DNA of 33,624 nt from an uncultured Flavobacteriaceae bacterium (lineage in GTDB: Bacteria; Bacteroidota; Bacteroidia; Flavobacteriales; Flavobacteriaceae), in assembly GCA_938017825.1 (NCBI GenBank), contig CALIJE010000118.1:1-33624 (forward strand), written 5' to 3'. Positions within the stretch are counted from its first letter, which is position 1. Each line of letters starts with the position of its first letter. The translations under genes were made by a program, and so were the position numbers. The notes under the pieces were generated by a model. The model did not search any database and had not been told where the DNA came from. It worked only from the letters and a program-made list of their open reading frames with translations. Below are positions 719 to 11,319 of the stretch, one piece after another.

Positions 719-1939
719 ATGCAAAGAAGAAAATTCATTTCGAAAACAATGCTCGCCAGCCTGGCTTCGGCTATAGGCACGGATATAGTTTACGGAAATA
801 TGCTCCCTGCCCAATACCCTGTGCTGGCCCTTCAAGATCCAGACCCATTTGCACTATTCAGCAAGGATAGCCAGATGGTCTTGCTAAACGACAGGCCCTG
901 GAATATGGAGGCGCAGGCGCACTTGTTAGATGATAAAGTGACCCCGAATAAATATATGTTTATTCGGAACAACGGTATTATCCCTGAAAATATAGATGTG
1001 AATTCGTGGACCTTGAAATTCGACGGTGAGTCGGTTCGTCAAGAAAAAACCTATACCCTGGCCGAGTTAAAATCAAAATTTCCCCAGCACACCTATCAAC
1101 TTACCTTGGAATGTGGTGGTAACGGTCGTAGCGAATTTGACCCCCCTGCCAAAGGAAATCAATGGACAATCGGTGCAGTTGGTTGCGCAAGATGGACGGG
1201 CATTCGACTAAAAGATATACTTGAAGATGTAGGCGTCAAAAACGATGCGGTCTATATCGGATACCATGCCGCTGATACCCACCTCAGTGGGGACCCCACA
1301 AAAGAACCCATTTCACGTGGTGTTCCTATGGCAAAAGCATTGCAAGATGAAACACTGATCGCCTTTCAAATGAACGGCAAGGACATTCCCTTGGCCCACG
1401 GCTATCCCCTGCGTCTCATTGCAGGAGGTTGGCCAGCCTCTGCTTCTGGTAAATGGTTGAATGGCATTAGTGTTCGAAATAAAGTGCATGATGGCACCAA
1501 AATGACAGGTACAGCCTATCGCGTTCCTTGCGAACCTGTTGCGCCAGGAGAAAAAGTCAAGGACGAGGATATGTGCATAATCGAATCGATGCCGGTAAAA
1601 TCCTTGATCACCTATCCCAAGAGCGGAGCTACGCTCAAAAGTGTCGCATCCTTGCAAATTCGTGGGCACGCTTGGGCAGGTGAACTAGAGGTTTCAAAGA
1701 TGGAATACTCCATCGATTTTGGAAGTACATGGCAAGCTTGTTCTTTAGAAAAGCCTACCAATCGCTTGGCTTGGCAACATTTTAATGCGACAATCAATTT
1801 TCCCAAAAAGGGATATTACGAGATATGGGCACGCGCTACCGATAGTCAAAAAATGGCTCAGCCAATGCTGCTGCCGGGGTGGAATCCCAAAGGCTATCTG
1901 AATAATGCCTGTCATCGTATTGCCATAAAAATAACCTAA
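719..1939 (+). CDS. Molybdopterin-dependent sulfite oxidase/dehydrogenase catalytic subunit
   Basis: A 406-residue sulfite oxidase-family enzyme (SorA/SoxC-like) that oxidises sulfite to sulfate outside the cytoplasm using a Mo cofactor. The N-terminus MQRRKFISKT carries a twin-arginine (RRxFI) motif before a weakly hydrophobic stretch, as expected for Tat export of a folded Mo enzyme. The Mo-binding domain spans about 75-265. It includes TLECGGNGRS with the expected Mo-ligand Cys132, followed by GAVGCARWTG. A C-terminal Mo-co dimerisation domain (about 290-403) ends the protein. The TAA stop shares its last A with the ATG of the cytochrome c gene (TAATG), so the two are translationally coupled, which fits a SorAB-type dehydrogenase. 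Sulfite as substrate is inferred from the family; related enzymes can act on sulfoxides (MsrP/YedY) or as SoxC. Confidence 0.88.
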   Translation: MQRRKFISKTMLASLASAIGTDIVYGNMLPAQYPVLALQDPDPFALFSKDSQMVLLNDRPWNMEAQAHLLDDKVTPNKYMFIRNNGIIPENIDVNSWTLKFDGESVRQEKTYTLAELKSKFPQHTYQLTLECGGNGRSEFDPPAKGNQWTIGAVGCARWTGIRLKDILEDVGVKNDAVYIGYHAADTHLSGDPTKEPISRGVPMAKALQDETLIAFQMNGKDIPLAHGYPLRLIAGGWPASASGKWLNGISVRNKVHDGTKMTGTAYRVPCEPVAPGEKVKDEDMCIIESMPVKSLITYPKSGATLKSVASLQIRGHAWAGELEVSKMEYSIDFGSTWQACSLEKPTNRLAWQHFNATINFPKKGYYEIWARATDSQKMAQPMLLPGWNPKGYLNNACHRIAIKIT

Positions 1940-2424
1940 TGAAAGGTCTAGAACAATATAAGGAGAGTGCGGCACAAATACGTAAGTTGATGACTAGTGT
2001 ACTCATCATTTTTATGTTGGCCGTAACCGTTTTGGTCTATTTACTCATCGACCCGACCTTGACCGCTTTTTCATCTGAAACTACTGATGGGGACTATGAG
2101 ACCACATCTGATATTACCGATGAGGATTACGATAAAATAGAAGATGGTATTCACCTGCGTACCGGTTTTGTGGAAGGCGACGGACTCATGCTGGTGGTAA
2201 ATAATTGTACCAACTGCCATTCCGCAAAATTGGTCACCCAGAACCGAATGTCGAAAGAGCGATGGACAGCTACGATTCGCTGGATGCAAGAAACCCAAAA
2301 CCTGTGGGACCTTGGCGGCAATGAAGAACCGATTATCAATTATCTGGCTACCCATTACGCCCCGACCCAAAAAGGGCGCAGACAAAATCTGAGCAACTTC
2401 GAATGGTATGACCTGGAAGAATAG
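1939..2424 (+). CDS. Membrane-anchored monohaem cytochrome c, SorB-like
   Basis: A 161-residue protein with one uncleaved transmembrane helix (about 18-38), then an acidic linker (Glu/Asp/Thr-rich, 46-70) and a small c-type cytochrome domain. The haem site is CTNCH at 90-94; Met104 or Met116 could be the sixth ligand. It starts on the last base of the sulfite oxidase stop codon and overlaps the next gene by 17 bases. The probable role is accepting electrons from the sulfite oxidase and passing them to the respiratory chain on the periplasmic face. The acidic linker may let the haem domain reach the Mo enzyme. Haem attachment is directly supported; partnership is inferred from coupling. Confidence 0.82.
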   Translation: MKGLEQYKESAAQIRKLMTSVLIIFMLAVTVLVYLLIDPTLTAFSSETTDGDYETTSDITDEDYDKIEDGIHLRTGFVEGDGLMLVVNNCTNCHSAKLVTQNRMSKERWTATIRWMQETQNLWDLGGNEEPIINYLATHYAPTQKGRRQNLSNFEWYDLEE

Positions 2425-3346
2425 TGCATATTTACTTCTGCTGTTCTGCTTCTTTTCCTGTAAAAACGAAAAGGATAAAACTCCCCTAATTTCTTTTGGT
2501 GAAAGCGATTTGATAACGGTCGCACAGCTCCTTGAACACAAGGCGTCGCCACAGCTAAAAATCATCGATTTTAGAAAGAAGACCAACTATCTAGAAGGCC
2601 ACATCCCAAATGCTATTCAAATTTGGCGCAGCGATATAGAGGATACGTCTTTCCCTTACAAGGGCATGATGGCATCCAGAACACAGATAGAACAACTGTT
2701 CTCAAAACTAGGAATCAAATCTAGGGATACCCTAGTAATCTACGACGACATGGCATCCTGCGATGCGGCCCGATTGTGGTGGGTTTTAAAATGTTATGGT
2801 TTTGACCAAGTAACCCTTCTCGATGGAGGTATCAAGGCTTGGCTAGCTGCCAATGAACCTCTATCAAAAACCCATCCAAATTACGAAAAGACCGCGTTCA
2901 AACTGCCGCTTACTAGAGGCCTGAAATACCATATCGACAGGCAAAATCTTAGCAATTTGCTTAAAGATAGTTTGCCTGTTTTTGTTTTAGACACCAGAAC
3001 TTCAGATGAATATTCAGGGAAAAGACAAAAGCCTGGGGCTACAAAAGGGGGGCGTATTCCGAATAGTGAATTGTTCGACTGGTCTCAGGCAGTTGATTTA
3101 AACGGCTCACAAAAATTCAAATCCATCCCCGAATTAAAGACCCTTTACGGGAAGTTAAATATTCAAGAAGATGCGAACATCATTACCTATTGCCATAGCG
3201 GGGTGCGATCCGCCCATACCACTTTTGTATTGACCGAATTATTAGGATATGAAAATGTGAGGAATTATGACGGTTCTTGGTCTGAATGGAGCCATTTCGA
3301 TGAGATGCCTTTTGAAAAAGACAGTATTACCGTAATTTTACACTAG
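2408..3346 (+). CDS. Lipoprotein sulfurtransferase with two rhodanese domains
   Basis: A 312-residue protein with a lipoprotein signal peptide (hydrophobic 7-17, then FFSC with Cys18 as lipid site) and two rhodanese modules, about 30-150 and 160-305, the layout of thiosulfate and 3-mercaptopyruvate sulfurtransferases. The second module carries the active-site loop CHSGVRS with Cys262 as the persulfide-forming residue; the first is the inactive copy, as usual. The active loop differs from both classic forms (CRKGVT, CGSGVT), so donor preference is open. The gene overlaps the cytochrome c by 17 bases. An envelope-anchored sulfurtransferase beside a sulfite oxidase suggests it releases sulfite or persulfide sulfur that is then oxidised on site. 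Confidence 0.87.
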   Translation: MTWKNSAYLLLLFCFFSCKNEKDKTPLISFGESDLITVAQLLEHKASPQLKIIDFRKKTNYLEGHIPNAIQIWRSDIEDTSFPYKGMMASRTQIEQLFSKLGIKSRDTLVIYDDMASCDAARLWWVLKCYGFDQVTLLDGGIKAWLAANEPLSKTHPNYEKTAFKLPLTRGLKYHIDRQNLSNLLKDSLPVFVLDTRTSDEYSGKRQKPGATKGGRIPNSELFDWSQAVDLNGSQKFKSIPELKTLYGKLNIQEDANIITYCHSGVRSAHTTFVLTELLGYENVRNYDGSWSEWSHFDEMPFEKDSITVILH

Positions 3347-6873: not shown

Positions 6874-6891
6874 TAGTATCAGAGGATACTA
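6874..6891. repeat. Hairpin abutting a 10-codon frame
   Basis: TAGTATC (6874-6880) and GATACTA (6885-6891) are perfect 7-base arms around AGAG. The right arm runs into the ATG of the 10-codon frame at 6891, so in RNA the hairpin would hide that start codon. It could be a translational switch or a second protein-binding site. Confidence 0.35.
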
Positions 6892-6923
6892 TGTTCGGAA
6901 TATTCAAAAAGAAATCGGAGTAA
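6891..6923 (+). pseudogene. 10-codon frame MFGIFKKKSE: gene relic or leader peptide
   Basis: ATG at 6891 encodes MFGIFKKKSE followed by TAA. From memory, many flavobacterial genomes have a small protein of about 55-60 residues (Lacal_2735-type) that starts almost identically (MFGLFKKKSE). If so, this is a truncated relic: the following 68 bases before the photolyase-family gene are too short for the rest, and no frame continues cleanly. The alternative is a genuine lysine-rich leader peptide, since it sits right behind a hairpin and before the operon. I favour a relic, with low certainty. Confidence 0.35.
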
Positions 6924-6991
6924 GATCTGTTTCGAATGCACTATGTTCTGGGCAGAAAGCCAATTTAGGAAATAAGATAAGCAAGCGTTGA

Positions 6992-8110
6992 ATGGAATTA
7001 TTTGAGGAAGAATTACCAATATTTCCGCTATCCTATGCAGAAATCATGCAACGCCTTAGGCGTGTAGACCCAATTAAATACGGGGCAACGCGTAATTACC
7101 TAAATGGTGCTGTCAGCTATTTATCTCCTTATATTTCTAGAGGTGTGATTTCAACCAAATTGGTGCTTGCTGAAATACTAGGAAGAGGCTTTAAACCTGC
7201 TCAAATTGAGAAATTTATTCAAGAATTGGCATGGCGCGACTATTGGCAGCTGGTATGGATTGCGAAAGGAGATGCGATAAATCAAGATCTTAAACACCAA
7301 CAGAAACCTATTTCAAATAGACAAATTTCAAACGCAATTGTAGATGCAAAAACTGGGATTATTGCCATAGACACGGCTATTAGGAATTTTTATAAAACCG
7401 GCTATTTGCATAATCATATGCGAATGTACATCGCAGCAATTGCCTGTAATATGAGTCAGAGTCATTGGAAAGTTCCTGCGCAATGGATGTACTTTCATTT
7501 GTTAGATGCAGACTGGGCCAGCAATGCACTAAGTTGGCAATGGGTTGCAGGGGCTAATTCAAATAAAAAATATGTAGCCAACCAAGATAATATCAACAAG
7601 TATTGCGGAACCAACCAAAAAAAATCCTTCTTAGACATTCCGTACGAACAATTTGCAAGCCTTGACATACCCGAACATCTTAAAGAAACAAGCCCCTTAA
7701 ACCTCCAGACCGTATTGCCGAAACCTGAAGCTCTTCGAATAGATAAAAACTTGCCAAGCCATATCTACAATTTTTATAATGTGGACCCACTTTGGAAAAA
7801 GGATACTCCAGCAAACAGGATTCTATTGCTAGAACCTTCTCATTTTAAGCAATATCCTGTTTCACAAAAATCGATTGATTTTATCCTATCTATTTCAAAA
7901 GTGAACATTGAAAATATTCAAATTTATGTCGGAGAGTTTGAGACGCTTGTTGCTGATTATGAATTATTGAATGTGTTCTATAAAGAGCACCCACTAAACA
8001 ATCACTATAGCGGTATCAAAGAAGAAAGAGACTGGATGTTTGAGGTGAAGGGGTATTACCCTTCATTTTACTCTTTTTGGAAAAAATGTAAAAAACAATT
8101 ACGCTATTGA
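6992..8110 (+). CDS. Photolyase-type FAD-binding protein lacking the N-terminal antenna domain
   Basis: A 372-residue protein whose first 210 residues match the C-terminal FAD-binding domain of photolyases and cryptochromes. Landmarks are [10 protein letters not shown] (42-51), ELAWRDYW (78-85), [10 protein letters not shown] (136-145) and [13 protein letters not shown] (172-184). Aligned by hand to E. coli photolyase, the flavin-site residues Asp372, Asn378, Trp382 and Trp359 correspond to Asp172, Asn178, Trp182 and Trp159; no clear third Trp of the classic chain is visible. The usual N-terminal alpha/beta domain is absent. Instead residues about 275-372 form a C-terminal segment reading as beta-alpha-beta ([11 protein letters not shown], helix, IQIYVGEF). 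Its [11 protein letters not shown] echoes [12 protein letters not shown] in the N-terminal domain of the third operon protein. The ATG at 6992 has no Shine-Dalgarno sequence. Its stop overlaps the next start (TTGA). DNA repair or light sensing is inferred. Confidence 0.82.
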
Positions 8111-9564
8111 AAAAACAAGCCTTAAATATCGTTTGGCTAAAGCGTGATATACGGTCACAAGATCACGAACCCTTGTTAAAGGCAGAAAAAAGCGGTGAAA
8201 ACTATCTTATTATATACTTGTTTGAGCCCAGTCTAATTAACCATCCTGATACAAGTCTGAGGCATTTACAATTTGTATATCATTCTATCCTCGCACTGAA
8301 TAAAATCTTAGCAACTTATAATAGGCAAGTAACCCTATTTTATGGCGAGGCTCCCATGGTGTTCAACTACCTCAATGAGCGTTGCGATATCAAACATATT
8401 TTCAGCTATCGTGAAAGTGGCATACGAATAACTTGGGAACGCGATAAAGAAATTAAACAGTTTTGCACTGCACATAACATTACTTGGGAAGAATCGCAAC
8501 GCGATGGTATTTTACGCGGAATTAAAAACAGAAGCAACTGGAGTAAAAAATGGCATAAGGCCATGCACAATCCGATTATTCAAAATTCGTATTCAAAAGC
8601 CAAAGAACAAGCCTTAATCCATGGCTTTGTGCTTCCAAAAAAATTCAAAAATAAGCTAGACAACTATCCTGCTAACTTTCAGCCACCAGGAGAGTACAAT
8701 GCATGGCGGTACTTAAAATCGTTCGTGAACCAAAGAGGGTTTAACTATCAAAAACATATTTCTAAACCTGCTGCAAGCAGAATTTCCTGTAGCAGATTAT
8801 CCCCATATTTAGCATGGGGAAACATTAGTATTAAACAAGCCTTTCAATATGTTGGCACGCATCCTAACGGAACCAAAAATAGCCGTGCCTTTTCTGCCAT
8901 GCTCACCAGACTGCATTGGCATTGCCACTTTATTCAAAAATTTGAGGTTGAATGTGCCTACGAAACGGATTGTATCAACAGTGGCTATGAACTGTTACGA
9001 CATACCAAGAATGAAGCCTATATCGAGGCATGGAAAAACGGCAATACAGGCTACCCGTTAATTGATGCCTGCATGCGATCGGTTAGGCATACAGGTTGGC
9101 TGAACTTTAGAATGCGCGCAATGGTAGTTTCTTTCTTTGCCTTTAATTTGGACCAAGATTGGCGCGAGGGGGCGTATCATTTGGCAAGACAATTTTTAGA
9201 CTATGAACCCGGTATTCATTATCCCCAATTTCAAATGCAGGCTGGTACTACCGGAATTAACACCGTACGGTTATATAACCCTGTCAAAAATTCTCAAGAG
9301 CACGACCCGGATGGTACTTTTATTAGAAAATGGGTTCCAGAACTTGAAAAAATTCCCCTAAATCATATTCACGAACCCTGGAAAATGACATTCATAGAGC
9401 AAGGTTTTTACGGGCTTACCATTGGGGAAGACTATCCACACCCTATCGTAGATTTACAAGAAAGTTCGAGAAAAGCAAGAGCCAAAATATGGGGTCATAA
9501 AAAGCATCCTGCGGTACAAAAAGAAAAAAATAGGCTCTTAAGAACACATGTAAATCAACGATGA
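8107..9564 (+). CDS. Photolyase/cryptochrome family protein with atypical flavin pocket
   Basis: A 485-residue two-domain protein. An N-terminal alpha/beta photolyase domain (about 5-135, opening [13 protein letters not shown]) is followed by the helical FAD-binding domain (about 200-430). The latter includes [10 protein letters not shown] (229-238), RLHWHCHF (268-275), [11 protein letters not shown] (314-324), DWREG (351-355) and [13 protein letters not shown] (391-403). Where E. coli photolyase has Asp372, Asn378 and Trp382, this protein reads [14 protein letters not shown], giving Asp365, His371 and Phe375; Trp352 matches Trp359. The Asn beside flavin N5 and the first Trp of the electron chain are therefore replaced. 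The TTG start at 8107 overlaps the previous stop by 4 bases and is supported because the conserved IVWLKRD begins 7 residues later and no ATG is near. Whether it repairs CPDs, (6-4) products, or signals is open. Confidence 0.87.
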
Positions 9565-9692
9565 GGAAAAAGCAATACCTTCCTAAAAAAGTATGCCTGG
9601 TTTGTGAGCGGCCATTTACTTGGCGTAAAAAATGGGCAAAAAATTGGGATGAAGTAAAGTATTGTAGCCTGCGCTGTAGAAAGAACAAATGA
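9561..9692 (+). CDS. DUF2256 small cysteine protein
   Basis: A 43-residue protein with two cysteine pairs, Cys12-x-x-Cys15 and Cys35-x-x-x-Cys39, flanking a basic, Trp-rich segment ([14 protein letters not shown]). This matches the DUF2256 family, small predicted zinc-ribbon-like proteins that recur beside cryptochrome/photolyase genes in marine bacteria. Its ATG overlaps the preceding stop (ATGA) and its TGA overlaps the next ATG in the same way, so it is translated as part of the operon between two photolyase-type genes. Function is unknown. Metal binding is inferred from the cysteines; a role as accessory or nucleic-acid-binding subunit of the flavoproteins is speculation. Confidence 0.85.
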
Positions 9693-11176
9693 AAAGCACA
9701 AACCTCATATTTCCGCATCAATTATTTCAAGATTCTCCACTGTTCGACAGTAGTAGTTCTTACTATCTAGTTGAAGAATATTTATTCTTTAAACAGTACC
9801 CTTTTCACAAGCAAAAAATAGCTTTCCATAGAGCCTCTATGAAACAATACGCAGCTTTTCTTCGCAATGAAAAAAATATCGAAGCACATTATATTAATGC
9901 ACACGAAACTATTGCAGATGTAAGAATGCTCATCCCTTTTTTAAAAAAACAGGGGGTCACCCATATTAATTATATTGACCCTACAGACAATTGGCTTCAG
10001 AAAAGAATTGAAGAAGGATGTCTAGAAAATACTATTTCAACTCGTATTTTTGAGTCGCCTTTATTTTTAAACTCCAAGGAAGAACTGCGAGCATTCTTTA
10101 GAAAAGACAAAAAGAAATACCACCAAACATCCTTTTATACAGAACAGCGAAAAAAACGAAATATCCTTATTACGGTTGATGGAAAACCTGAAGGAGGTAA
10201 ATGGACTTTCGACTCGGAAAACAGAAAAAAATACCCTGCAAATAAGATTGCACCTGCAATTCAATACCCAGAATCAGACAGCTATTATGAAGAAGCAAAG
10301 CAGTATGTCGAAAGGTATTTTTCAACCCATTTGGGGAGCTTAACACCATACTCTTTATATCCCACAAATTTTAAAGCCACCGCATGGTGGTTGCAACAAT
10401 TTTTTGAACAGCGGTTCAATAATTTTGGAGCTTACGAAGATGCTATTGTTGCCGAAATTTCCATTTTAAACCATAGTGTTTTAAGTCCGATGCTGAATAC
10501 CGGGCTTGTTACCCCTTCTGAAGTCATAAATGCATGTTTAAGCTATGCCGCGGAGAACGAAATTCCCATAAATTCTACTGAAGGTTTTGTGCGCCAAATA
10601 ATTGGCTGGCGCGAGTTTATTCGAGGTATTTATGAAGCAAGAGGTACAGAAGAACGAACAAGAAATTTTTGGAATTTTAAAAAGAAAATTCCGCGTTCAT
10701 TTTACGATGGTACAACAGGAATTCCACCAATAGATAAAACCATAAAAAAAGTATTGAAAACAGGATACTGTCACCATATTGAGCGGCTTATGATCTTGGG
10801 CAATTTTATGTTACTATGTGAATTTGACCCTGATGATGTCTATAAATGGTTTATGGAGTTGTTCATTGATGCCTATGATTGGGTAATGGTCACAAATATT
10901 TACGGAATGAGCCAATTTGCCGATGGAGGCTTAATGGCTACCAAGCCTTATATCAGCGGGAGTAACTACCTTATGAAAATGAGTAATTACAAAAAAGGAG
11001 CGTGGCAAGCTACTTGGGATGGTCTGTTTTGGAGGTTTATGCATGTGCATCGCGACTTCTTTTTGGCTAACCCAAGATTGGGCATGCTTGTAAGAATGTT
11101 TGACAAAATGCCCAAGGAAAAGCAAGATGCCAATCTTGAAAATGCTCGTCTTTATATGAATAAGTTAAGCAACTAG
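9689..11176 (+). CDS. Bacterial (6-4)-photolyase/CryB-type protein without Fe-S cysteines
   Basis: A 495-residue protein of the prokaryotic cryptochrome/(6-4) photolyase group (PhrB/CryB, FeS-BCP). The N-terminal deoxyribodipyrimidine photolyase-related domain spans about 3-215 and the FAD domain about 225-490. Typical motifs are [10 protein letters not shown] (306-315), [11 protein letters not shown] (358-368), DAYDWVM (394-400) and GMSQFADGG (406-414). Classical members bind a 4Fe-4S cluster with four Cys: one just before the TGY.HHI.RLM helix and three after KPY.SG.NY. Here those stretches read TGIPPIDK (343-350) and [17 protein letters not shown] (432-448), with no Cys and a shorter loop. 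Cys361 and Cys377 are present but not at the expected sites. Last gene of the operon; its ATG overlaps the DUF2256 stop. Catalytic status is uncertain. Confidence 0.87.
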
Positions 11177-11232: not shown

Positions 11233-11245
11233 ATTGACATTGATG

Positions 11246-11319
11246 TGGTCCCACCTGGGCTCGAACCAGGGACCCCTTGATTATGAGTCAAGTGCTCTAA
11301 CCAGCTGAGCTATAGGACC
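11246..11319 (-). tRNA. tRNA with CAU anticodon, probably tRNA-Ile2
   Basis: On the minus strand 74 bases fold as a complete tRNA. The acceptor is GGTCCTA/TGGGACC, D stem GCTC/GAGC, anticodon stem CTTGA/TCAAG with loop CTCATAA, T stem CCTGG/CCAGG with loop TTCGAGC, and discriminator A. CCA is not encoded. Anticodon CAT could be elongator Met or Ile2 (lysidine-modified by TilS). The C4-G69 and C5-G68 pairs are those recognised by TilS in the E. coli Ile2 tRNA, which favours Ile. An initiator is unlikely because the anticodon stem lacks the three G-C pairs. Isotype is inferred; the tRNA itself is certain. Confidence 0.93.

Follow-up and report, generated by a model that had tools for sequence, protein, structure and literature searches.

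Here we report that a 33,624-nucleotide (nt) stretch of DNA from an uncultured Flavobacteriaceae bacterium (GenBank assembly GCA_938017825.1, contig CALIJE010000118.1; hereafter referred to as the window) carries an operon of four overlapping genes, which encode three flavoproteins of the photolyase/cryptochrome family (P1, P2 and P4) and a DUF2256 mini-protein. The operon is probably a light-dependent ultraviolet (UV)-damage repair cassette of marine Bacteroidota with a division of labour, as judged from sequence comparison. P1 would be an inverted-topology cyclobutane pyrimidine dimer (CPD) photolyase in the niche of CRY-DASH, and P4 would repair (6-4) photoproducts without an iron–sulfur (Fe–S) cluster. 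P2, which is predicted to bind flavin adenine dinucleotide (FAD) but has lost both the CPD-repair residues and the flavin-proximal Trp, would be a cryptochrome-like or otherwise specialised partner, and DUF2256 may assist the (6-4)/P2 part as a zinc-finger-like protein, perhaps in folding, cofactor loading or DNA contact. Gene structure, conservation, active-site residues, a P1 model and co-occurrence are established here, and from them we infer the biochemical activities, the induction by light or UV and the role of DUF2256.

Conservation of the operon

Each gene overlaps the next by four bases, as described in the original prediction, in which P1, P2 and P4 were called proteins 1, 2 and 3: TTGA at P1/P2 (8107–8110), ATGA at P2/DUF2256 (9561–9564) and ATGA at DUF2256/P4 (9689–9692). 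We compared this arrangement with the best 80 of at least 494 confirmed P1 relatives from a genome scan, a set that leans to close relatives and in which L276 and L295 appear identical to the survey records G026 and G104. The usual order is a small gene, DUF2452, DUF2805, P1, P2, flavin reductase, DUF2256 and P4, with the neighbour families Flavin_Reduct (PF01613), DUF2805 and DUF2452 tested against Pfam on one member each. In 80/80 loci, whichever of the genes for P1, P2, flavin reductase, DUF2256, P4 and DUF2805 are found share the same strand. Of the 67 loci that extend 4.5 kb or more downstream, 59 have P4, 56 DUF2256, 40 P2, 36 flavin reductase and 32 the complete set of P1, P2, DUF2256 and P4; P2 is missing in 27 and P4 in 8, 7 of which have P1–P2 alone.

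DUF2256 lies directly 5′ of P4 in 63 of the 66 loci with P4, and this junction is ATGA in 33 of 63 relatives. At the P1/P2 junction, the TTG start of P2 overlaps the P1 stop codon as TTGA in 39 of the 50 relatives in which P2 adjoins P1. The overlap junctions are conserved beyond chance. The original prediction thus stands in that a same-strand, overlapping set is conserved in Bacteroidota and its genes do not usually lie apart. The operon is also present in an uncultured Dokdonia (L266), and two Persicobacter plasmids carry P1–P2, with P4 following in one; a 17-kb stretch of Persicobacter sp. JZB09 has P1–P2–P4 with no DUF2256 match. Members of the nearest P2 group occur with P1 in 5/7 family genomes; in the other two, P2 lies 302 bases from a contig end (G066) or has an internal stop (G046). 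A search for photolyase gene clusters in Flavobacteria found no description of the operon in titles and abstract openings within the literature collection searched.

P1 has an inverted topology

The only Pfam match in P1 is FAD_binding_7 at residues 75–194; the DNA_photolyase domain was not found. In the AlphaFold2 model (mean predicted local distance difference test (pLDDT) 89.6), the all-helical FAD domain is followed by an alpha/beta domain, modelled with confidence, at about residues 250–372. P1 therefore has no N-terminal antenna domain, as first noticed from the sequence, a reading that had missed the C-terminal domain. In an alignment of 45 sequences (A2), E78, W81, N141, M145, N178, W159 and W182 are invariant; we matched them by eye to E274, W277, N341, M345, N378, W359 and W382, respectively, of the Escherichia coli photolyase. 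These residues are compatible with the predicted repair of CPDs in single-stranded DNA. The cysteines of P1 are confined to positions 152, 205 and 366 (Cys in 43, 43 and 45 of the 45 rows), and the four Fe–S cysteines of the SPL type are not found in its FAD domain.

A tree of 55 FAD domains places P1 with proteins from Ruegeria, Peteryoungia, Novosphingobium and Deinococcus (support 96/87, with a long-branch warning there), which are also FAD-domain-first and which we ourselves typed as inverted, the tree holding no published NewPHL sequences. At their C termini, P1 and these four inverted-type groups have in common, as seen by eye, an aromatic pair and then a helix rich in Lys and Arg. Among the 50 Foldseek matches listed for the P1 model, all are photolyases or cryptochromes except one mitoribosome entry with a putative-photolyase chain. 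We compared a profile of the P1 C-terminal domain with the N-terminal domains of P2 (E = 0.0036, probability 9.1%) and class I photolyases (E = 0.0052, 7.0%), with DASH (E = 0.041) and with DPRP (E = 0.25); column-shuffled controls (three shuffles against three profiles) gave 0.024–0.58. This comparison is no more than suggestive of a relocated antenna domain. As a separate observation, a Deinococcus sp. QL22 plasmid (L330:2869-4160) encodes an FAD-domain protein and a separate C-terminal-domain protein with a 4-base overlap, like a split inverted photolyase.

P1 and CRY-DASH seem to replace each other

We counted both enzymes in a family sample (n = 120 genomes) and a phylum sample (n = 247), which overlap in some genomes. 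P1 was called at E values up to 2.3e-96 in the family sample, where the next match was at 1.5e-19, and at 1e-50 in the phylum sample; the DASH threshold was 1e-60. In the family sample, P1 occurs in 12 genomes, DASH in 40 and both in none. Of the 57 family genomes with a P4-family gene, 11 have P1, 40 DASH, none both and 6 neither, and of the 83 phylum genomes with DPRP, 16 have P1 only, 51 DASH only, 1 both and 15 neither (Fisher tests that ignore kinship, p = 6.7e-8 and 7.8e-8, respectively). Across the phylum sample, P1 and DASH occur together in 1/247 genomes, and no DASH was called in the sequence flanking the 80 P1 loci. In 11/12 family genomes P1 is accompanied by a P4 of the window type (identity of 55% or more, regarded as Fe–S-free), and in none by a canonical P4 relative.

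P1 thus seems to replace CRY-DASH. Because it would occupy the CRY-DASH niche, it would probably prefer CPDs in single-stranded DNA, and the apparent mutual replacement beside a (6-4)-type enzyme supports the idea that the inverted photolyase and CRY-DASH do the same job. NewPHLs reportedly stand in for DASH in many bacteria (Emmerich 2020).

A large conserved island, resembling a light- or oxidative-stress island, surrounds DUF2256, DASH, the (6-4)-type enzyme and a P2 sister in Flavobacteriaceae (L198, L200, L212, L215, L228 and others). In relatives with CRY-DASH its order, with putative labels for several genes, is TetR, AarF, flavin reductase, SDR, DUF2256, DASH, FeS-BCP or P4 and the P2 sister, and then, after other genes, FolE, SDR, GPx, TspO, SRPBCC and a class I photolyase. 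The window genome is 87% complete, and its sole further FAD_binding_7 match is a class I-like photolyase on a short contig (L222, G000:C119:1-3307), beside genes that by eye are SRPBCC-like and SDR-like; this gene set resembles one end of the island.

P4 is a (6-4)-type enzyme without Fe–S ligands

P4 consists of a DPRP domain (E = 4.6e-55) and FAD_binding_7, and its best Protein Data Bank match is 7ykn (E = 1.8e-78). In our alignment of the P4 clade (84 rows, with four short sequences from the loci and the partial G095 gene left out), none of the four Fe–S cysteines is present in any row: C350 is replaced by P and the C438/C441 stretch is missing in all, and the C454 position, A in the window P4, is Cys in none. 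Two of the 84 rows have another Cys nearby. All four cysteines are present in 16/16 canonical relatives. The absence noted for protein 3 is therefore a property of the whole clade, and P4 does not carry the four [4Fe-4S] ligands of FeS-BCP. By contrast with these losses, H366, L370, M410, W390, Y424 and Y430 are kept in 84/84 rows, so that P4 has the DPRP N-terminal domain, the FAD domain and the residues H366, L370, M410 and Y424 that mark prokaryotic (6-4) photolyases.

In PhrB, H366 and Y424 are needed for repair, as their mutants lose activity, and W342F and W390F lose most photoreduction, according to passages of PMC4619345. A section of PMC9178010 describes an Fe–S-free subgroup M of prokaryotic (6-4) photolyases and counts its Fe–S-free member PromaPL as a 6-4 photolyase; the Fe–S loss in the P4 clade is thus itself known. 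Part of PMC9426592 identifies PromaPL, from Prochlorococcus, with Phr2. The function of the Fe–S cluster in P4 relatives is called unknown in an excerpt of PMC12082625.

P2 belongs to a non-canonical clade

P2 contains the Pfam domains DNA_photolyase and FAD_binding_7. We aligned 54 P2 rows, in which the window is entered twice and at least one species is counted twice, with three sequences of less than 440 residues left out. All 54 carry E274R, N341F, M345A, N378H, W382F and W384M (E. coli numbering), which bears out the earlier remark on a Phe at the flavin-proximal Trp and adds five further active-site changes. A sister group (17 rows) has the same changes, but with L (12) or I (5) at W382. 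The FAD contacts R236, R344 and D372 are kept in all 54 P2 and 17 sister rows, and S235 in 53 and 16, respectively; W277 and W359 are retained in 54/54 P2 rows. Proteins from Salinivibrio, Tritonibacter (with V at W382) and Persicobacter carry the P2 residue pattern, and together with P2 and the sister group they form one clade with 100/100 support in the tree of 55 FAD domains. The literature searched yielded no name for this clade. An orphan P2 with an internal TGA, perhaps decaying, lies at G046:C2:207043-208491 in a genome without a P1 orthologue.

The residues that define class I CPD photolyases (E274, N341, M345 and W382) are R, F, A and F in 54/54 rows, and P2 is not a CRY-DASH, as it stands in its own clade and scores 143.8 bits against the TIGR02765 cut-off of 317.05. 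We also rejected a eukaryotic-type (6-4) photolyase: N341 and M345 correspond to His sites in those enzymes, and P2 has F and A there. P2 is more likely to be a cryptochrome-like or specialised partner than a CPD photolyase, as far as its residues indicate.

Two alternatives refine this account and are compatible with it. P2 may be a bacterial cryptochrome that senses light and either controls the operon or reports the flavin redox state, while P1 and P4 repair DNA. The retained FAD contacts, together with the replacement of the repair residues throughout the clade, favour such a sensor; however, Pfam finds no output domain, the loss of W382 takes away the usual photoreduction route, and P2 may instead repair another lesion. 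We regard the sensor as a real but minority possibility. Rather more doubtful is the view of P2 as a photolyase that has escaped recognition and acts on another substrate, with the flavin reductase in place of a Trp chain to reduce it. The invariance of W277 and W359, the fixation of the new active-site residues across a clade that spans three bacterial groups and the position of a flavin reductase directly 3′ of P2 in 24 of the 50 loci with P2 after P1 speak for it, but the reductase is present while P2 is absent in 16 of the 80 loci.

DUF2256 accompanies P4-family enzymes

The DUF2256 protein matches PF10013 (E = 7.5e-22, 77.6 bits versus a cut-off of 25), and its C12, C15, C35 and C39 show no variation among 44 sequences. 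Its model consists of a hairpin with a short helix (pLDDT 83.5, predicted template-modelling score 0.50), and part of PMC4047054 counts DUF2256 among the metal-binding domains of the TRASH clan. In the family sample, 53 genomes have both DUF2256 and a P4-family gene, 4 the P4 family only, 1 DUF2256 only and 62 neither; the two genes lie within 2 kb of each other in 49/53. The corresponding numbers in the phylum sample, with DPRP marking the P4 family, are 73, 10, 6 and 158, and the 79 DUF2256 matches include two weak ones, G130 under the cut-off and G201 at 27.7 bits. Among 14 control genomes, two have DUF2256 and DPRP and one, Haloferax volcanii, has DPRP only. Two genomes, G014 and G063, carry the DUF2256–P4 pair but have no match to P1 or P2.

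The association is looser on plasmids. Of the plasmid records, 60 were listed of 135 with DUF2256 and 60 of 85 with P4. The two listings share 28 records, many of them near-copies of Rhizobium or Acinetobacter plasmids, and 22 of the 28 have the two genes within 1 kb of each other. DUF2256 adjoins a cryptochrome/photolyase-family (P4-like) gene on a Rhizobium plasmid and a P2-class gene on Salinivibrio and Tritonibacter plasmids, where no P4-type gene is annotated in the stretch. On a Sphingobium plasmid it adjoins an SDR gene and lies near FolE. Pantoea accounts for 57/135 of the plasmid records with DUF2256. No paper treating DUF2256 together with a photolyase was found in the one literature collection searched, in which two papers mention DUF2256.

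The window copy and its surroundings

The small gene whose remnant precedes P1 (Table 1) is presumably Lacal_2735; it heads the operon in many relatives, in which DUF2805 lies just 5′ of P1. Alignments of the remnant score 42–50, compared with a maximum of 29–32 in 20 shuffles each. The segment 6890–6991 is, on this sequence evidence, a deletion scar that fuses the start of the small gene to the end of DUF2805. Contig C49 of the same assembly carries copies of the small gene, DUF2805 (intact, at G000:C49:26891-27106) and the flavin reductase, with no photolyase match in the 15 kb examined. GC content at third codon positions (GC3) is 0.341 for P1, 0.371 for P2 and 0.337 for P4, versus a mean of 0.426 (s.d. 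0.039) for 54 other long mechanically called open reading frames, 4 of which have a GC3 of 0.371 or less. A tRNA-Met gene (11245–11319, minus strand) lies just downstream of the operon, and the low GC3 with this adjoining tRNA suggests that the operon was acquired near a tRNA. In G018, the single genome of the same genus in the sample, the P4, P2 and DUF2256 searches gave no match and the P1 search only a weak one. The operon copy of the window is likely, though not proven, to have been acquired horizontally.

Table 1 Operon genes and gene remnants in the window
Feature	Position	Strand	Length	Description
P1	6992..8110	+	372 aa	Photolyase of inverted topology: FAD domain with CPD-photolyase residues at the N terminus, alpha/beta domain at the C terminus
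P2	8107..9564	+	485 aa	TTG start; member of a separate bacterial clade in the photolyase/cryptochrome family, with other residues at the CPD-repair positions
DUF2256	9561..9692	+	43 aa	CxxC-x19-CxxxC mini-protein, probable zinc finger
P4	9689..11176	+	495 aa	Prokaryotic (6-4) photolyase type, DPRP and FAD domains, no Fe–S cluster ligands
Small-gene remnant (start)	6890..6925	+		Ends after MFGIFKKKSE; local DNA alignment to L236/L241/L243
DUF2805/TIGR03643 remnant	6935..6991	+		Last 18 codons and stop; frame NALCSGQKANLGNKISKR and stop, versus ...KCSRQKAISGNKISKR and stop in relatives

An NCBIfam scan of the four operon proteins gave no model over its cut-off. Scans of the window found 21 promoter-like sites (15.7 expected, s.d. 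3.3) and 5 terminators (4.4 expected, s.d. 2.4), no clear excess in either case, and the single Rfam match is one tRNA. Elsewhere in the window, positions 719–3346 hold SorA/SorB-like sulfite dehydrogenase genes followed by a rhodanese-type sulfurtransferase gene, with all NCBIfam matches under cut-off.

Discussion

Our analysis suggests how a repair cassette with divided labour might work. The short overlaps would couple translation, so that the set is produced together, and the weak, overlapping TTG start of P2 would fit a lower, P1-dependent synthesis. The flavin reductase of many relatives may help to keep FAD reduced. The operon may be induced by light; a passage of PMC9040609 reports light regulation of cryptochrome and photolyase in Dokdonia MED134. 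The active sites of the three flavoproteins differ and therefore predict different jobs. We rejected the explanation that they are duplicate repair enzymes, as they fall into separate tree groups with different active sites.

Several observations weigh against this account. The P1/DASH exclusion is weak when all genomes are tested (p = 0.008, n = 120; p = 0.13, n = 247), the tests disregard kinship, and G199 has P1 plus distant DASH matches. The P1 gene of G079 is in two pieces with a stop. The window operon has no flavin reductase, that gene being on contig C49. In P4, W342, part of the electron relay of PhrB, is Y in 83/84 rows. Outside Bacteroidota, a photolyase lies beside DUF2256 in only 3/8 plasmid regions; four of the 8 have no annotated photolyase within 5 kb, in gene tables that are incomplete. 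Part of PMC9178010 reports that AfPhrB requires its Fe–S cluster for stability, substrate binding and repair, and a discussion passage of PMC9426592 raises the possibility that the Fe–S-free picocyanobacterial Phr2 acts on CPDs.

A more elaborate version, which we consider unlikely, is a coordinated photorepair unit in which P2, as a new cryptochrome class with the R274/F341/A345/H378 signature, and DUF2256, as a dedicated photolyase partner, would regulate two unusual photolyases or hand over to them. Quite improbable, in our view, is the proposal of the original prediction that all four proteins are physically joined in a single light-dependent assembly for repair or signalling. The conserved order and four-base overlaps, the co-occurrence of the nearest P2 group with P1 and the position of DUF2256 directly before P4 are all consistent with an assembly. 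However, P1 occurs without P2 (27/67 loci) or without P4 (8/67), DUF2256–P4 occurs in genomes without P1 or P2, and the Persicobacter sp. JZB09 stretch combines P1, P2 and P4 in the absence of a DUF2256 match; that the parts are often found separately argues against an obligate complex. To deduce a multi-subunit assembly from the coupling is thus unsupported, since the flavoproteins are not duplicates and the modules are also found apart. The shared operon suffices to explain the coupling, and a complex is possible but unneeded. It is very improbable that DUF2256 supplies in trans the metal site lost by P4: it directly precedes the Fe–S-free P4 and has four invariant cysteines, but replacement of the cluster is disfavoured because DUF2256 is equally common with canonical Fe–S enzymes (33/34 genomes, versus 20/23 for the Fe–S-free group).

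If the repair cassette is as we propose, the light-repair kit of sunlit-ocean bacteria departs from the textbook version. A whole (6-4)-type clade lives without an Fe–S cluster, a wider P2 clade has its CPD-repair site replaced, and DUF2256, a very frequent small bacterial protein of unknown function, gains a testable role.

Comparison with known photolyase systems

P4 matches FeS-BCP enzymes (PhrB, CryB and Vc(6-4)) nearly end to end, with 32–37% identity to canonical family relatives, but differs in its 0/4 Fe–S cysteines, shortened loop and W342Y. It resembles the Fe–S-free subgroup M with PromaPL, as described in part of PMC9178010, in its DPRP and FAD domains, (6-4) residues and lack of Fe–S ligands, a likeness drawn from the description rather than the PromaPL sequence, and differs in its operon with P1, P2 and DUF2256. 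P2 shares two Pfam domains with class I CPD photolyases and CRY-DASH, in the order of a standard photolyase, whereas it forms a separate 100/100 clade in which the CPD-site residues are gone.

P1 is like NewPHL/SPL in having the FAD domain first, the second domain last and an intact CPD site, and in its tree grouping. In a comparison with the alphaproteobacterial proteins rather than with published NewPHL sequences, the C-terminal domain of P1 gave a poor alignment, and SPL differs from P1, which has three Cys and hence no four-Cys cluster. NewPHL/SPL have an inverted topology and repair CPDs in single-stranded DNA, according to part of PMC13274461, and a section of PMC9426592 assigns to Phr7 an FAD domain at the N terminus and a further domain at the C terminus, and to Phr4/5 and Phr6 the reversed order. 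As in the operon reported here, photolyase genes of different classes share one operon in the UV-B-inducible two-photolyase operon of Synechococcus PCC 7335, described in a portion of PMC9649867.

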